A stretch of 64,000 bases of DNA, taken from Candidatus Mediterraneibacter faecavium (lineage in GTDB: Bacteria > Bacillota > Clostridia > Lachnospirales > Lachnospiraceae). The notes beneath the pieces were generated by a model. The model saw nothing but the letters and a program-made list of their open reading frames with translations, was not told where the DNA came from and searched no databases. Of this stretch, positions 1,568-48,064 are shown piece by piece (within the stretch, counting starts at the first letter, position 1; the number at the start of each line of letters is the position of its first letter). The position numbers were made by a program, and so were the translations under genes. Location: positions 1 to 64,000 of the forward strand of contig DWVY01000051.1 of assembly GCA_019119995.1 (NCBI GenBank), in the 5' to 3' direction.

Positions 1568-2797
1568 CTATATTTTGTCCTGCATTTTGTTCTGTGCCCT
1601 TTTCGGCATCAGGCTTGCTTTCATGACAGAACCTTCCCCGAACTTCCGGTTCAGTTCGTCCATGGCTTTCTTCAGCCGTTTGTGCTTCTCATCGGGCTCT
1701 TTTGGCATCTCAATATCAAAGATCGACAGCTGCTCCGGCGCGGCTTCATCAGTAAGCTTGGAAGTTCGGATCCCGAGCAGGCGCACCGGCTCCCCGCTCC
1801 ATATTTCAAGGAACAGGCTGCACGCAGTCTCTTTTAGTATCTCCGGATCATTGCTCGGCTTATCAAGCTGTATCTGGTGGGACGTCGTACTGAAATCATA
1901 ATATTTGATCTCCATGCTGACCATCCCGGCTTTCTTCCCTGCTTTCTTGAGCCTGCCGCCCACGCTCTGCGCAAGCCGCTCAAATACCGGCCGGATTTCC
2001 TCCATCGTCGCCGCGTCTTCACTGAGCGTTGTGGAATTTCCGATCCCTTTCGCCTCGTCCGGCTCCGACTGGACGACCGAAGTTCCGATGCCGTTGGCAA
2101 ATTCCCACAGCATCTTCCCGTGGCTCTTGAGATGAAGCATGATCAGTTTCGGATCTGAGCGCGCAAGGTCTCCTATCGTATTGATTTCCAGCTTTTTCAG
2201 CACTTCCACACTGGATTTACCCGCCATGTAGAGCTCTCCTATGGGCAGGGGCCACATTTTTTCCTTTATCTCCTCCGGATAAAGCGTGTGGATCCGGTCC
2301 GGCTTTTCAAAGTCCGACGCCATCTTCGCCAGAAGTTTATTCGTAGAAATCCCGATATTCACGGTAAATCCGAAGCGCTCCTTTATCCCGTCTTTTATCT
2401 CCACAGCCCCGTCCACCGGAGAATTCCACCGGTCTGCGATCCCCGTGAAATCCATATAGCATTCATCTACACTGACCTGTTCGATCTCTTTCGTAAATGT
2501 CCGAAGATGCTCCATCAGTCTCCTGCTCTTCTCCCTGTACATCTTATGATCCGGGGGATACATTGCAAGATTCGGGCACTTACGAAAGGCATTCGCAACA
2601 GGTTCCCCCGTGCGGATGCCATATCGTTTCGCCGCAGGGGATTTCGCAAGCACCACGCCATGACGGGATTTCTGATCCCCGCCGATGATCGCCGGTATCT
2701 CGCGCAGATCCACTGCGGCTCCGTTTTTCAGTTGTTCTACTGCAGTCCAGCTAAGATATGCTGAGTTTACATCGATATGAAAAATGATAGGCGCCAT
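1568..2797 (-). CDS. dinB: DNA polymerase IV (Y-family translesion polymerase)
   Basis: At 409 residues it has the usual DinB length plus a modest C-terminal tail. The palm begins with HIDVNSAYLSW, carrying the first metal-binding aspartate, and the second catalytic motif is SVDECYMDFTG. The little-finger region contains KYYDFSTTSHQ and ends near RLLGIRTSKL. The enzyme copies past damaged template bases without proofreading. The tail after residue 350 is charged and lacks an obvious QLxLF-type clamp motif, although EQLSIFDIE at about 360 could serve as a beta-clamp-binding peptide. It lies 130 bases after clpB on the same strand; an AAGGAAG ribosome site supports the start. Confidence 0.93.
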   Translation of the reverse strand: MAPIIFHIDVNSAYLSWTAVEQLKNGAAVDLREIPAIIGGDQKSRHGVVLAKSPAAKRYGIRTGEPVANAFRKCPNLAMYPPDHKMYREKSRRLMEHLRTFTKEIEQVSVDECYMDFTGIADRWNSPVDGAVEIKDGIKERFGFTVNIGISTNKLLAKMASDFEKPDRIHTLYPEEIKEKMWPLPIGELYMAGKSSVEVLKKLEINTIGDLARSDPKLIMLHLKSHGKMLWEFANGIGTSVVQSEPDEAKGIGNSTTLSEDAATMEEIRPVFERLAQSVGGRLKKAGKKAGMVSMEIKYYDFSTTSHQIQLDKPSNDPEILKETACSLFLEIWSGEPVRLLGIRTSKLTDEAAPEQLSIFDIEMPKEPDEKHKRLKKAMDELNRKFGEGSVMKASLMPKRAQNKMQDKI

Positions 2798-2926: not shown

Positions 2927-5530
2927 TTACTCTGCGGCGACGATCTGGCCTTTCACCTCAGCCGTCAGTTTCCCGTCTTTTGCATCGATCAGGATCGTGT
3001 CTTCCCTGCCTACATTTCCGGCAAGGATCAGTCTTGCCGCCAGCGTTTCTACATTCTTCTGCAGATATCTCTTCAGCGGCCTTGCTCCGTACATCGGGTC
3101 GTAACCGCCTTCTACTACGAAGTCTTTCGCCGCATCTGTCAGTTCGATCGTCAGCTCTTTCTCCGCCAGACGTTTGTTGACATCTGCTATCAGTAAGTCA
3201 ATAATGGCACGGATATTCTGTTTCGTCAATGGTTTGAACATAATTATTTCATCCAGACGGTTCAGGAACTCCGGTCTGAAATGGGCTTTCAGGTCGTTCA
3301 TGACCATCTCCTGGCTCTGCGTGTCTATGGAGCCGTCGTCATGGATGCCTTCCAGCAGATAACCTGCACCGATATTGGACGTCATGATCAGGATCGTATT
3401 CTTGAAGTCCACAGTCCTTCCCTGAGAGTCTGTGATCCGTCCGTCGTCAAGCACCTGGAGCAGTACGTTAAATACATCCGGATGGGCTTTCTCGACCTCG
3501 TCGAACAGTACGACGGAGTACGGTTTTCTCCTGACTGCCTCCGTGAGCTGCCCGCCTTCATCGTATCCGACATATCCCGGAGGCGCTCCGATCAGACGGG
3601 ACACGGAATATTTCTCCATGTATTCGCTCATATCGATACGCACCATATTGTTCTCATCATCGAACAGGCTCTGCGCCAATGCTTTGGCAAGCTCTGTCTT
3701 ACCGACTCCGGTAGGTCCTAAGAACAGGAACGAACCGATCGGTTTGCTCGGATCCTTGATCCCTGCTTTGGAACGGATGATCGCTTCTGTCACAAGTTCA
3801 ACGCCTTCATCCTGCCCGACCACACGTTTGTGCAGCTCATCTGCAAGATGGAGCGTCTTGTTCCTCTCGCTCTCGTTCAGTTTCGCCACCGGTATTCCCG
3901 TCCAGCGTGAAACAATACGTGCGATCTCGTCGTCCGTAACAGCCTCATGGACAAGGGAAAGATCCTTTGCTTTTACCTTTTCTTCCTCTTCCTCCAGTTG
4001 TTTCTGAAGCTGAGGCAGCTGTCCATACTGCAGTTCGGCGGCTTTGTTCAGGTCATACTCTCTCTGTGCTTTCTGAATGTCCTTGTTGACCTGCTCGATC
4101 TCCTCGCGGATCTTCTGGACCCGCTCCACGGATTTCTTCTCATTCTCCCACTGGACTTTCTTGCCGGCGTACTGTTCTTTCAGATCCGCCAGTTCTTCCT
4201 GCAGATGTTCCAGACGCTCCTTGCTCAGACGGTCTTCCTCTTTCTTAAGCGCCGACTCCTCGATCTCAAGCTGCATGACCTTACGCCTCAGCTCATCCAG
4301 TTCCGTCGGCATGGAGTCAAGCTCCGTCTTTATAAGAGCGCACGCCTCGTCCACAAGGTCGATTGCCTTATCCGGCAGGAAACGGTCGGAGATATAACGG
4401 TTCGAAAGTGTCGCAGCCGCGACAAGCGCGCTGTCCGTGATCTTTACTCCGTGGAATACTTCGTACCGCTCTTTCAGACCACGCAGGATGGAGATTGCAT
4501 CCTCCACTGTCGGCTCGTCTACCATGACCGGTTGGAACCGGCGTTCCAGAGCCGCGTCTTTCTCAATATATTCACGGTATTCATCCAAAGTCGTTGCGCC
4601 GATACAGTGCAGCTCGCCTCTCGCCAGCATAGGCTTTAACATATTGCCGGCGTCCATGGCGCCGTCCGTCTTGCCTGCGCCGACGATCGTGTGCAGCTCA
4701 TCGATAAACAGGATGATCTTGCCGTCGCTGTTCTTCACTTCCTCGAGGACCGCTTTCAGACGTTCCTCAAACTCGCCCCGGTATTTTGCTCCGGCTACAA
4801 GCGCTCCCATATCAAGGGAAAAGATCGTCTTCTCTTTCAGCCCCTCCGGCACGTCTCCGCTGACGATACGCTGGGCCAGTCCTTCCACGACCGCCGTTTT
4901 GCCGACGCCGGGCTCTCCGATGAGCACAGGGTTGTTCTTTGTCTTACGGGAAAGGATGCGGATCACGTTGCGGATCTCCTCGTCACGGCCGATGACCGGA
5001 TCAAGCTTCTGGTCGCGGGCGCGCTCCACAAGATCCTGCCCGTACTTATTCAATGTATCATAGGTAGCTTCCGGATTGTCGCTGGTCACCCGCTGGTTGC
5101 CCCGCACGGTCGAGAGCGCGTGCAGGAATCCCTCGCGGCTGATGCCGTACTCCCGGAAAAGCTGTTTCATATCTCTACTTGCATATTTTAACAGGGCAAG
5201 AAACAGATGCTCGACGGACACATACTCGTCCCCCATCTGTTTCGCCTCATCCTCTGCATGGATGAGGACGTTGTTGAGATCCTGGCCCACGTAAGCCTGG
5301 CCGCCCTGGACTTTCGGCCGCTTACCGATCATCTGCTCCACACTGTTGATGAAGAGCTGTCCCTGGATACTCATTTTTTCAAGCAATTTTAAGATCAGAC
5401 TGTCGTCCTGCGTCAGCAGCGCATAGAGCAGATGCTCCTGCGCCAACTCCTGATTGCCGTTGTCCGCGGCGATCTTCTCGCAGTTCTGCACAGCCTGCAG
5501 TGAATTCTGTGTAAATTTATTGATATTCAT
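2927..5530 (-). CDS. clpB: ATP-dependent disaggregase ClpB
   Basis: An 867-residue Hsp100 protein with the full ClpB architecture: N-terminal Clp repeats (1-145), first AAA+ module with Walker A GEPGVGKT near residue 205, a long charged middle coiled coil (about 400-525) that separates ClpB from ClpC/ClpA, and a second AAA+ module with GPTGVGKT. It lacks the IGF/LGF loop used by ClpP partners, as expected for a disaggregase that works with DnaK. Heat-shock control is visible upstream: a sigma-A-type promoter whose -35 box overlaps a CIRCE operator. The start follows a GGAGGGAAG ribosome site. Confidence 0.97.
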
Positions 5531-7486: not shown

Positions 7487-8923
7487 TCACTGCTCCAGTA
7501 TTTCTTTTATCATCTTTGTCACAGCCGCCGGGTCGGCTTTTCCTTTCAGCGCCCTCATGCTCTGTCCCATGAGCGCTCCGAAAGCTTTCTGCTTGCCGCC
7601 CTTATAATCTGCGACCGCCTGCGGATTGTCCGCAAGGACTTTCTCTACCGCTTCTTTGATGGCTCCCTCATCGTTCACGGTCTTAAGTCCGTTCTCTTCC
7701 ACATATTTCTCCGGATCTACATCATCGGTAAAGATCTGTTCGAATACCTTTCTTGCGACAGCGGCGCTGATGGTTCCTGCATCTGTCATATCAATGAGCT
7801 TCGCCAGATGCTCCGGGGAGAACTTCAGGCCTTCCGGTTCCATTCCTTTCTCTTTCATCAGGCGGAACACATCTCCCATGATCCAGTTTGCCGCTTTCTT
7901 CGGTTTTCCGCACAGCTCGACCGTTGCCTCGAAGAGATCCGCCACTTTCTTGGACTCTGTGATAAGCTCCGCATCGTATTCCGGAATATCGAATTCCGCC
8001 TTGTATCTCTCCAGCTTCTCGGGACGAAGTTCCGGCTGGCGCGCTTTGATCTTCTCGATCCACTCGTCGCTTATCACGATCGGCACGAGATCCGGCTCTG
8101 GGAAATAACGGTAATCCTGCGCGTCCTCCTTGGAACGCATCGCATAAGAATGTTCCTTATTATCATCCCATCTTCTTGTCTCCTGGATAACTTCTTTCCC
8201 TTCTTCAAGGAGTTCAATCTGTCTCTGGCGCTCCCCTTCAATGGCATGGGCGATAGCCTTGAACGAGTTCAGGTTCTTCATCTCTGTTCTCGTACCGAAA
8301 GTATCCGATCCAGCCTCACGGACAGACAGGTTCACATCCGCCCTCATGGAACCTTCCTGGAGCTTACAGTCTGACACTCCCAGATACTGCGCGGTCATGC
8401 GCAGTTTTTCCAGATATGCGATCACTTCGTCAGCAGAGCGCATATCCGGTTCGGAGACGATCTCCACAAGGGGCACTCCGCTCCGGTTGTAATCTACAAG
8501 GGAAGTGTCGTCCCACTCGTCGTGGACCAGTTTCCCCGCATCCTCTTCCATATGCATCTCATGGATCCGTACTTTCCTCTTTCCTGTCTGTGTATCGATC
8601 TCCACATATCCGTCTCTAGCGATCGGGAGATAGAGCTGGGATATCTGATAGTTCTGCGGGTTGTCCGGATAGAAATAATTCTTCCGGTCGAACTTGCACA
8701 CCTGTGTGATCTTACAGTTCGTGGCAAGCCCGAGCGCCATAGCATACTCCACCACCTGTTTGTTGAGCACCGGAAGTGATCCGGGCATCCCTGTACACAC
8801 CGGGCATGTATGGGTATTCGGCGCGCTTCCGAACTCTGTGCTGCATCCGCAGAAGATCTTCGTCTTTGTCGCCAGCTCGATATGCACCTCAAGTCCGATG
8901 ACTGTCTCATACTGTTTTGCCAT
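7487..8923 (-). CDS. gatB: Aspartyl/glutamyl-tRNA amidotransferase subunit B
   Basis: A 478-residue GatB, full length. It opens with YETVIGLEVHIELATKTKIFCGC, continues with the conserved CPVCTGMPGSLPVLN stretch, and ends with the YqeY-like tail domain (KAFGALMGQSMRALKGKADP). GatB binds mischarged Asp-tRNA(Asn) or Glu-tRNA(Gln), activates the acyl group with ATP and receives ammonia from GatA. It is the last gene of aspS-gatC-gatA-gatB, two bases after gatA. Confidence 0.97.
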   Translation of the reverse strand: MAKQYETVIGLEVHIELATKTKIFCGCSTEFGSAPNTHTCPVCTGMPGSLPVLNKQVVEYAMALGLATNCKITQVCKFDRKNYFYPDNPQNYQISQLYLPIARDGYVEIDTQTGKRKVRIHEMHMEEDAGKLVHDEWDDTSLVDYNRSGVPLVEIVSEPDMRSADEVIAYLEKLRMTAQYLGVSDCKLQEGSMRADVNLSVREAGSDTFGTRTEMKNLNSFKAIAHAIEGERQRQIELLEEGKEVIQETRRWDDNKEHSYAMRSKEDAQDYRYFPEPDLVPIVISDEWIEKIKARQPELRPEKLERYKAEFDIPEYDAELITESKKVADLFEATVELCGKPKKAANWIMGDVFRLMKEKGMEPEGLKFSPEHLAKLIDMTDAGTISAAVARKVFEQIFTDDVDPEKYVEENGLKTVNDEGAIKEAVEKVLADNPQAVADYKGGKQKAFGALMGQSMRALKGKADPAAVTKMIKEILEQ

Positions 8924-45399: not shown

Positions 45400-46224
45400 T
45401 CACAGGATCTTGGACAGGAACTCTTTCAGCCTCTCATCCTTCGGATGTTCGAAGAACTCCTCCGGCGGAGCCTCCTCAAGGATCTGTCCGTCGTCCATAA
45501 AGATCACCCGCGAAGCCACCTCCCTAGCAAAGCCCATCTCATGTGTGACGACAACCATCGTCATTCCGTCTTTCGCCAGTTCCTTCATCAGGTCGAGCAC
45601 CTCGCCGACCATCTCCGGATCCAGCGCCGATGTAGGTTCGTCGAAAAGGATCACGTCCGGGTTCATTGCAAGAGACCGGATGATCGCGACTCTCTGCTTC
45701 TGACCGCCTGAGAGCGTGGACGGATAGACATCCGCCTTGTCGTCCAGCCCGATCCTCTTTAAGAGATCCATCGCCTGCTTCTTCGCCTCGCTTTTGATCT
45801 GCTCCTTCGTCGTCGTGATCGGGATCAGGTCTTCCTTCCGGCTGCGGAATACATTTTTCAGACGGATCATGCGGTTCTTCCGCTTCGCTTTCTTCAGGTC
45901 CTGGCACCGCAGATAAGCCGGGGCCAGCATCACGTTCTGGAGCACCGTCTTATTGTTAAACAGATTGAAATGCTGGAACACCATCCCCATATGGCGGCGG
46001 TGTACATTGATGTCGACCTTCATGTCGGCAATGTCAACGCCTTTAAATATAATGCTGCCCGACGTCGGATCCTCCATACAGTTCAGACACCGGAGAAATG
46101 TACTCTTGCCGGAACCTGACGGGCCGAGCACCGCGACGATATCGCCTTTGTTGATGGTGATGTTGATTCCTTTGAGGACCTCAAGCCCTCCGAAGCTTTT
46201 CCTAAGATTAATTACGTCTATCAC
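45400..46224 (-). CDS. Polar amino acid ABC transporter ATP-binding protein (GlnQ-like)
   Basis: A 274-residue ATPase, about 30 residues longer than GlnQ. Walker [10 protein letters not shown], signature [15 protein letters not shown] and Walker [16 protein letters not shown] are intact. The extra residues ([30 protein letters not shown]) form a basic insertion between the Q-loop and signature regions. It is the third gene of binding protein-permease-ATPase and overlaps the permease by 17 bases. It powers uptake of a polar amino acid. Confidence 0.93.
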
Positions 46225-46918
46225 TCTTCCTCAGGCTCCTTTCCAGTAATTTGACCAACAGTGAGATCACCAGCACAAGTACGATATAGATCGCCGCCAT
46301 TACCAGATACGGCACCATAAAGTCATAGCTGTTTGATCCGATATAGTTAAACGCCACATAGAGATCCGCAGCAGCGACAAAGCTGACGACCGACGTCTCT
46401 TTCACCAGTGTAATAAACTCGTTTCCCAGAGTCGGAAGGATATTCTTGACCGCCTGCGGGATCACGATCTTTGTCATGCTTGTGCTGAAGCTTAAGCCCA
46501 CCGCGCGCCCCGCTTCCATCTGTCCGATGTCCACCGACTGGATACCGCTCCGCATGATCTCCGATATGTAAGCGCCGCTGTTGAGTCCGAATACGATCAT
46601 TGATATCTGTACGCCGTCCAGGTTTACCCCGATCAGCGGCAGGATAACATAGTAGCCGACAAGCAACTGCACCACCATAGGCGTTCCCCTGAACAGCGCC
46701 ACATAAAAGCTGCAGATGCCATTGAGCACTCTCGGAAGCCGTCTGTACTTCGGGATCACCCTCACGGTCGCGATCAATGTTCCGATCACGATACCGACGA
46801 TCAGTCCGGTAACCGCGATCAGGAGCGTATTCTGAAGACCTTCCACCACTCTCGTATAACCGTTCTGGGCAATAAACACTTCTACAAATTTGTCTATTCT
46901 CTGACTAAAATTACTCAT
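46208..46918 (-). CDS. Polar amino acid ABC transporter permease
   Basis: A 236-residue membrane protein of the His/Glu/Gln/Arg permease family. The coupling-loop motif is [46 protein letters not shown], and five hydrophobic segments are visible. It is a single permease, so it probably works as a homodimer. It follows the binding-protein gene after a gap that holds a strong hairpin, and overlaps the ATPase gene. Confidence 0.93.
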
Positions 46919-47046: not shown

Positions 47047-47940
47047 CTACTGCATCTCATTGATGGACTCTGTGATAGCCGCTGCCGGAGCCGCGTCGAT
47101 GATCACGTAATCGATATTTCCGTTCAGCATATCCTGTACTGCCAGAGAACCGTTCTTATATGTCTTGCAGGTTACGTTAAGTCCCGGGAATCCGAGGTCA
47201 TCGCTGCCTTCTATATAGCTGTTTCCTGTCGTACCCTGCTGGCATCCGATCTGTACGGAAGAATCGAGCTCGCCAAGAGCCGCCGCGATCGTATCAGCGT
47301 CCGTCATGTCGTCAAATGTCGTATCATCGCTCGGCACGATCAGTCTCTGTGACGCCTGATAATATGTGTCGGAGAATGTCACGTACTCTTTTCTGTCTTC
47401 GCTGACTGTGAGCCCTGCCATTGCGATATCACATTTCTGCTGTCCGACTGACAGACATACCGCGTCAAAATCCATATTCTGGATCACAAGCTCCTGTCCC
47501 AGCTCCTCTGCGAGCAGAGCCGCGATCTCCATGTCGATCCCCACATAGTTCTCACCTTCCATATACTCAAAAGGCTCAAACGCCGCATTGGTCGCAACTA
47601 CGAGCTGATCCTTTGATGTATCCAGCTCTGCGGACTCTACCGGTGTCGGCTCTCCGCCGCCGAAGTATTTATCAAAGATCTCATCCAGCGTTCCGTCTTC
47701 CTGGATCTTGGCGATAAATGCATTTACCTGCTCCAGAAGTTCCGGCTGAGACTTGTCAACACCGAAGGCATACTCTTCATTTGTAAGATCCACATCAATT
47801 ACTTTTGCTGTCTTCGCGCTGCCCGCATCAGAATCCGAACCGCTTCCGCCGTTGTCACTGCCGCTGTCGCTTCCGCCGCATCCTGCGAGCATTCCGACAG
47901 TCAGGGCTGCTGTTAAGACTGCTGCCAATAACTTTTTCAT
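47047..47940 (-). CDS. Circularly permuted amino-acid-binding lipoprotein of an ABC importer
   Basis: A 297-residue lipoprotein: signal peptide with lipobox LAGC (Cys21) and a Gly/Ser/Asp linker. Residues 46-96 (KVIDVDLTNEEYAFGVDKSQ ... DGTLDEIFDKYFGGG) have the look of the C-terminal end of a GlnH-type binding protein. Residues 111-297 then start with the usual mature N-terminus (QLVVATNAAFEPFEY) and stop after YVIIDAAPAAAITESINEMQ, exactly where the moved segment would normally follow. The fold should still be closed, with termini relocated. The ligand is a polar amino acid, not determined. Comparison was made from memory of GlnH. Confidence 0.88.
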   Translation of the reverse strand: MKKLLAAVLTAALTVGMLAGCGGSDSGSDNGGSGSDSDAGSAKTAKVIDVDLTNEEYAFGVDKSQPELLEQVNAFIAKIQEDGTLDEIFDKYFGGGEPTPVESAELDTSKDQLVVATNAAFEPFEYMEGENYVGIDMEIAALLAEELGQELVIQNMDFDAVCLSVGQQKCDIAMAGLTVSEDRKEYVTFSDTYYQASQRLIVPSDDTTFDDMTDADTIAAALGELDSSVQIGCQQGTTGNSYIEGSDDLGFPGLNVTCKTYKNGSLAVQDMLNGNIDYVIIDAAPAAAITESINEMQ

Positions 47941-47969: not shown

Positions 47970-48064
47970 TGCATAATCATACAGATTATCCTACTAATTT
48001 TAGCATGTTCTGCATAAATTTCAAGTCTCACATTGAAAGTTTATGCAACCAATTTATGCAGGAC
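47970..48064. promoter_or_regulatory. Promoter region of the amino acid importer with TGCATAA half-sites
   Basis: On the minus strand TTGAAA, 16 bases, TAAAAT forms the promoter. TGCATAA/TTATGCA-type half-sites recur around it, and TGCATAATCATACA at 47970-47983 resembles the ARG box TGAATAATTATTCA at 11 of 14 positions. ArgR control is suggested, not proven. Confidence 0.45.

Follow-up and report, generated by a model that had tools for sequence, protein, structure and literature searches.

A lipoprotein gene in the 64,000-nucleotide stretch of DNA analysed here (the window; positions 1 to 64,000 of contig DWVY01000051.1, Candidatus Mediterraneibacter faecavium) very probably encodes a genuine, old and natural circular permutant, the substrate-binding protein (SBP) of an ABC importer for polar amino acids, probably arginine. 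We regard the permutation as genuine because of homology that runs out of order, a rotation scan, the pLDDT of an AlphaFold2 (AF2) model, invariant ligand contacts, a junction of fixed length and an operon order that 78 of 80 loci share. The parts of the gene are as follows.

47047-47940, minus strand: SBP lipoprotein gene, an ORF of 297 residues ending in ...YVIIDAAPAAAITESINEMQ*
47878-47940, minus strand: signal peptide with lipobox LAGC, residues 1-21, read from the translation
47809-47877, minus strand: disordered Ser/Gly/Asp tether, residues 22-44, of variable length in relatives
47659-47808, minus strand: moved segment, residues 45-94
47608-47658, minus strand: junction linker from the old C-terminus to the old N-terminus, residues 95-111, with a conserved 16-residue core
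47050-47607, minus strand: canonical N-terminal four-fifths of the SBP, residues 112-297

The homology of the lipoprotein runs out of order

Along with the signal peptide and its nearly invariant Cys21, the expected lipidation residue, the protein carries two regions of family-3 SBP homology. With phmmer, residues 112-289 fall on residues 11-174 of AncQR (4zv1; i-E 1e-19) and residues 45-94 on 183-232, its true C-terminus (i-E 9e-5); against GlnH (1ggg), residues 112-222 fall on 4-114 and residues 46-95 on 174-223. A sequence-only reading of this DNA had likened residues 46-96 to the C-terminal end of GlnH and had placed the usual mature N-terminus only at residue 112, and these matches agree with it on both counts. 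The SBP_bac_3 profile (PF00497) scores 116.1 bits on the protein, above its gathering score of 26.4, with co-linear order absent: 47146-47604 corresponds to profile positions 1-102 and 47659-47820 to positions 97-131, reversed in the chain. Judged by these matches, the protein is a homologous but permuted relative of SBP_bac_3 and not a standard member.

We built an HMM from canonical relatives only and scored each cyclic rotation of the mature chain, the rotated chain of the window protein serving for scoring only. The native order was matched in two pieces of 177 and 44 bits, and the displayed rotations, which begin at residues 99-112, were matched as one domain of 231 bits spanning profile positions 1-214. 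This gain is far above chance.

The same arrangement might be produced by an assembly or sequencing artefact, or by a frameshift that masks a normal C-terminus, and the window's genome is indeed a draft of 66 contigs. However, no SBP tail was found in the 150 bases read round and past the stop codon, where the frame has stops, so that the chain does stop where the moved segment would normally continue, as had been claimed. Moreover, in a sample of 200 genomes from the family of the window's genome, one per genus, full-length co-linear homologues occur in 20 other genera at 43-76% identity, many of them from independent assemblies and isolates. The homologues and the tail-free downstream frame refute the artefact, to which we assign a negligible probability.

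A confident predicted structure, and a cut placed in lobe 2 by alignment

AF2, given an alignment of 33 proteins in the permuted order and no templates, returned a confident model over residues 41-297, with blockwise pLDDT of about 80-98, near or above 90 for most, and a pTM of 0.78. This structure prediction had been proposed as a check on the permutation, and both new elements of the chain are included in the confident part: the moved segment has a pLDDT of about 88-98 and junction residues 101-110 a mean of 96. Residues 1-38 are disordered (pLDDT below 50). The secondary-structure elements of the model match those of GlnH/ArtJ-type SBPs. Foldseek, a sequential aligner, aligned about 170-220 columns with family-3 SBPs at a target TM-score of at most 0.68 among 50 listed; such partial alignments are expected of a permutant under a sequential aligner.

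In terms of a canonical family-3 SBP, the moved segment supplies the last strand of lobe 2, hinge strand 2 and the C-terminal helices, and residues 112-297 supply the first part of lobe 1, hinge strand 1 and lobe 2. Aligned to GlnH, the chain opens with the final strand of lobe 2, which lies just ahead of hinge strand 2, and stops once it has completed the lobe-2 helix that normally precedes that strand; the cut therefore falls within a loop of lobe 2. In sequence, the chain passes from the last lobe-2 strand through hinge strand 2 into the lobe-1 C-terminal helices and the 16-residue junction, and from there through the canonical N-terminus and hinge strand 1 into lobe 2. The permutation leaves both hinge crossings, and the residues that contact the ligand, in place. 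Residues F121, F158, T178, R183, T238 and D282, invariant across relatives, align with the ligand contacts F13, F50, T70, R75, G119 and D157 of GlnH; R75 and D157, the counterparts of R183 and D282, hold the carboxylate (Arg) and the amine (Asp) of alpha-amino acids.

The moved segment could instead complete a neighbouring molecule in a domain-swapped assembly, the functional unit being an SBP dimer or chain. Thermotoga ArgBP, whose solved fold is one of the closest, is reported to form a dimer that is loosely organised by domain swapping (PMC4022495), and its C-terminal helix is reported to matter for its conformational transition (PMC9402392). Against a swap, the conserved, confidently modelled junction of fixed 16-residue length suggests a closed single chain, and AF2 packs one chain on itself, although the query was for a single chain. 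We consider a swapped assembly improbable, and favour the closed, permuted single chain. Such a protein would close on its ligand as GlnH or ArtJ do and hand it to the permease of the adjoining gene. Physically, the permutation would chiefly shift the lipid tether to lobe 2, away from the lobe-1 strand that runs into the binding site. Docking on the permease may change, as had been suggested.

The permuted order is conserved and appears to have arisen repeatedly

A search for other lipoproteins of the same order had likewise been proposed at the outset; 117 ORFs with the order of the window protein (class A) were examined, and across their large clade the order is fixed. The junction core is exactly 16 residues long in all 117, some of which come from the same species, with the consensus xGxPxxVxSAxLDxSK; linkers of canonical lipoproteins vary from 6 to 58 residues. 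Outside the family, a wider sample of the class held class A proteins in 18 genomes of other families, and a phylum-wide sample (E <= 1e-28) gave five matches outside the class, all in the canonical order. A scan of named genomes returned at least 575 related stretches; the top 80 are all from Clostridia, mostly Lachnospiraceae, with Mediterraneibacter species closest. With the order conserved in more than 100 homologues, alongside the out-of-order matches, the rotation scan and the AF2 model, the claim that a GlnH-type binding lipoprotein has been circularly permuted is upheld.

A second permuted order (class B) was the best match, judged by query ranges, in about 40 genera of the 200-genome family sample. 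Its chain runs from the first half of lobe 2 to the C-terminal helices, a junction of 15-22 residues (mostly 18-19) and the canonical N-terminus, and ends just past hinge strand 1. Several class B ORFs, of 510-556 residues, are permease fusions. An AF2 model of one class B protein from its single sequence, with no alignment as input, was uninformative (pLDDT 35).

A tree of the sequences, brought into a common order, requires at least four changes, on branches with good support, to explain the class A cut. Some of these changes could be reversals. Small groups with this cut sit beside canonical proteins (L190, L183), apart from the main clade. The AU test rejects a single class A clade, and with it one origin of this cut (p = 0.0068), with the caveat that the group was named after inspection of the tree. 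The junctions differ among class A, class A' and class B, which is consistent with separate origins. The permutation is common to hundreds of related gut bacteria, with apparently several independent origins and two cut points. The suggestion of a clade-wide variant was right in kind and too modest in extent, as the class A cut is not confined to one branch and another cut is frequent.

Two further class B loci were observed. In L152, two adjacent class B SBP genes (924-1721 and 1869-2684, plus strand), one much more diverged, precede a single permease. An IMG/VR contig (L115), which may be cellular, carries a class B SBP (3821-4741, plus strand), next to which lies a permease with 61% identity to that of class A; it was the one class B relative retrieved from viral contigs, among which a class B query found none.

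The class B order also occurs in another SBP subfamily. Adjoining the class A operon of L092 lies a class B permutant of this second subfamily (7554-8354, plus strand), of which the window's own genome has the canonical form (L001). Among the 200 family genomes, five other genera (L208-L212) have the permuted form, and the other matches fall into two pieces each, the pattern given by canonical proteins. Segments of the permuted proteins are 66-80% and 54-64% identical to the L001 protein, and the neighbours in L208-L212 are orthologous in order to those of L001 (permease 60-66%, ATPase 70-74%), indicating that the permuted form replaced the canonical one within the same operon type.

Tandem duplication as the likeliest route

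The likeliest route, which we infer for this clade too, is duplication followed by loss of the outer halves: a tandem SBP duplication, as in GlnPQ-like fusions, would have lost its outer halves and left a permutant. We favour it because tandem arrays exist among the relatives and because GlnPQ has a 14-residue linker between its SBDs (PMC8025302). One array is a 973-residue ORF with three nearly identical tandem canonical SBPs and a permease (L026, 568-3486, minus strand); the other, of 1000 residues, has half-full-full-half SBP repeats, equal to three class B units in tandem, and a permease (L176, 706-3705, minus strand).

Selection on tether position or neutral change

Whether the permutation matters to the cell is a question apart from its reality. 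It could be neutral, an accident fixed in each lineage that affects neither tethering nor docking. The binding site is unchanged, and in related genera a single operon type is served here by a canonical SBP and there by its class B orthologue. Against this, there is more than one origin, the cuts always fall in lobe 2 of lipid-anchored proteins and the junctions are separately conserved, all of which hints at selection, although this hint is weakened if lobe-1 cuts are disfavoured simply by folding, as they may be. Neutrality is a serious possibility, somewhat short of an even chance. Alternatively, the family-3 SBPs of Clostridia may have been permuted repeatedly, in at least four events and at two lobe-2 loops, because a tether or permease linker on lobe 2 improves delivery; we offer this tentatively, as a proposal that may well fail. 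If that is true, these SBPs would amount to a natural test of how the position of the tether governs ABC import.

As a rule, a natural circular permutant is a lone, ancient case that was recognised in a structure. The present related genera share an operon type in which the SBP is canonical in some and permuted in others, and there are two cut sites, fusions to the permease and tandem arrays, so that SBP evolution, folding and tether geometry can be compared directly among close relatives. There is also a warning for annotation: Pfam and NCBIfam match permuted SBPs in split pieces or in part, and the permutation therefore goes unremarked.

Comparison with known systems

The closest known proteins, GlnH, ArtJ and AncQR (PDB 1ggg, 2pvu and 4zv1), share with the window protein the SBP_bac_3 family, the structural elements, the ligand-contact positions and the transporter type. 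They are canonical, whereas the window protein has the last strand and C-terminal helices first, the tether on lobe 2 and the conserved 16-residue junction. GlnPQ of Lactococcus (PDB 6h30; PMC8025302) has a linker that, like the window junction, leads from C-terminal helices to the next N-terminus, but it consists of two complete canonical SBPs fused to a permease, without permutation.

Natural permutation of SBPs is already known. TpMglB-2 (Tp0684) of Treponema pallidum, designated 'Type Ic / Cluster Bc', is a naturally permuted tethered SBP that binds glucose and changes shape on binding; a related clade occurs in Gram-positive gut bacteria, and tethering was proposed by its authors as a possible reason for the permutation (PMC4990184). 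The window protein is likewise a natural permutant and a tethered SBP, but TpMglB-2 has a Type I sugar-binding fold, an N-lobe cut, an extra hinge crossing, and an unrelated family and ligand. Assignment of the window protein to 'Type Ic' was rejected, its matches being amino-acid SBPs of another type and its cut lying in lobe 2. Both proteins may share a theme, in which the tether is taken off the strand that runs into the binding site; as a hypothesis this is attractive. Permutation among ABC-importer SBPs is also described for the glycine betaine-binding proteins and their kin (PDB 2B4L, 1R9L, 1SW1; PMC2395249), which belong to another SBP family and whose relations were found structurally at less than 24% identity rather than among near-orthologues. 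Neither the window protein nor a class B protein, used as sequence queries, retrieved a solved permuted family-3 structure, and in the open-access literature we found no report of permuted family-3 SBPs or of repeated SBP permutation.

The operon and its probable ligand

The SBP gene lies in one operon with the genes and sites below.

47997-48024, minus strand: promoter-like sequence, read directly, TTGAAA (48024-48019) and TAAAAT (48002-47997) with a 16-bp spacer
47970-47983, minus strand: ARG-box-like operator TGTATGATTATGCA, shortly after the promoter-like -10
46208-46918, minus strand: cognate permease (Pfam BPD_transp_1), polar amino acid type
45400-46224, minus strand: cognate GlnQ-type ATPase (Pfam ABC_tran, NCBIfam GlnQ)
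45787-45912, minus strand: lineage-specific ATPase insertion between Q-loop and LSGGQ (spacing 87), limits approximate

As the SBP shares its operon with a permease and a GlnQ-type ATPase, the system is an ABC importer of the PAAT type. The permease adjoins the SBP in 79 of 80 fetched genome loci and is accompanied by the ATPase in 78; in the two incomplete loci, the contig ends soon after the SBP or permease.

An arginine-type importer is the best reading and a probable one, given regulation and homology. The promoter has an ARG box like that of argC, the genome has an ArgR gene, and the TGTATGATTATGCA site resembles published ARG boxes (consensus from PMC4865122); with operator and regulator both present, the operon is a predicted member of the ArgR regulon. 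A tighter ARG-box pattern occurs at four places in the window's genome, namely the TGTATGATTATGCA site, one site upstream of argC and two inside coding genes, the first two being its only intergenic copies; the control gave one match per strand. Among class A upstream regions, which are related to each other, 63 of 111 have ARG-box-like sites against 0.44 expected in shuffles, and the arms of these sites vary with the palindrome kept. No riboswitch or T-box was found upstream of the SBP gene. The best fold and sequence matches of the protein, which are arginine and glutamine binders, speak for the arginine reading as well. Against it, N118 and Q234 align with GlnH D10 and K115, so that the ligand may instead be glutamine or another polar amino acid.

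The ATPase insertion was considered as a functional partner of the permutation and rejected, as it is absent from class A' and class B. From Q-loop to LSGGQ, the main class A clade has spacings of 63-89; a spacing of 53 is seen in class A' and class B and in almost every canonical relative. Among the ATPases compared, insertions of 10-36 residues occur only in the main class A clade, with the exception of a 10-residue insertion in an L001 ATPase, and the insertion is probably a lineage marker.
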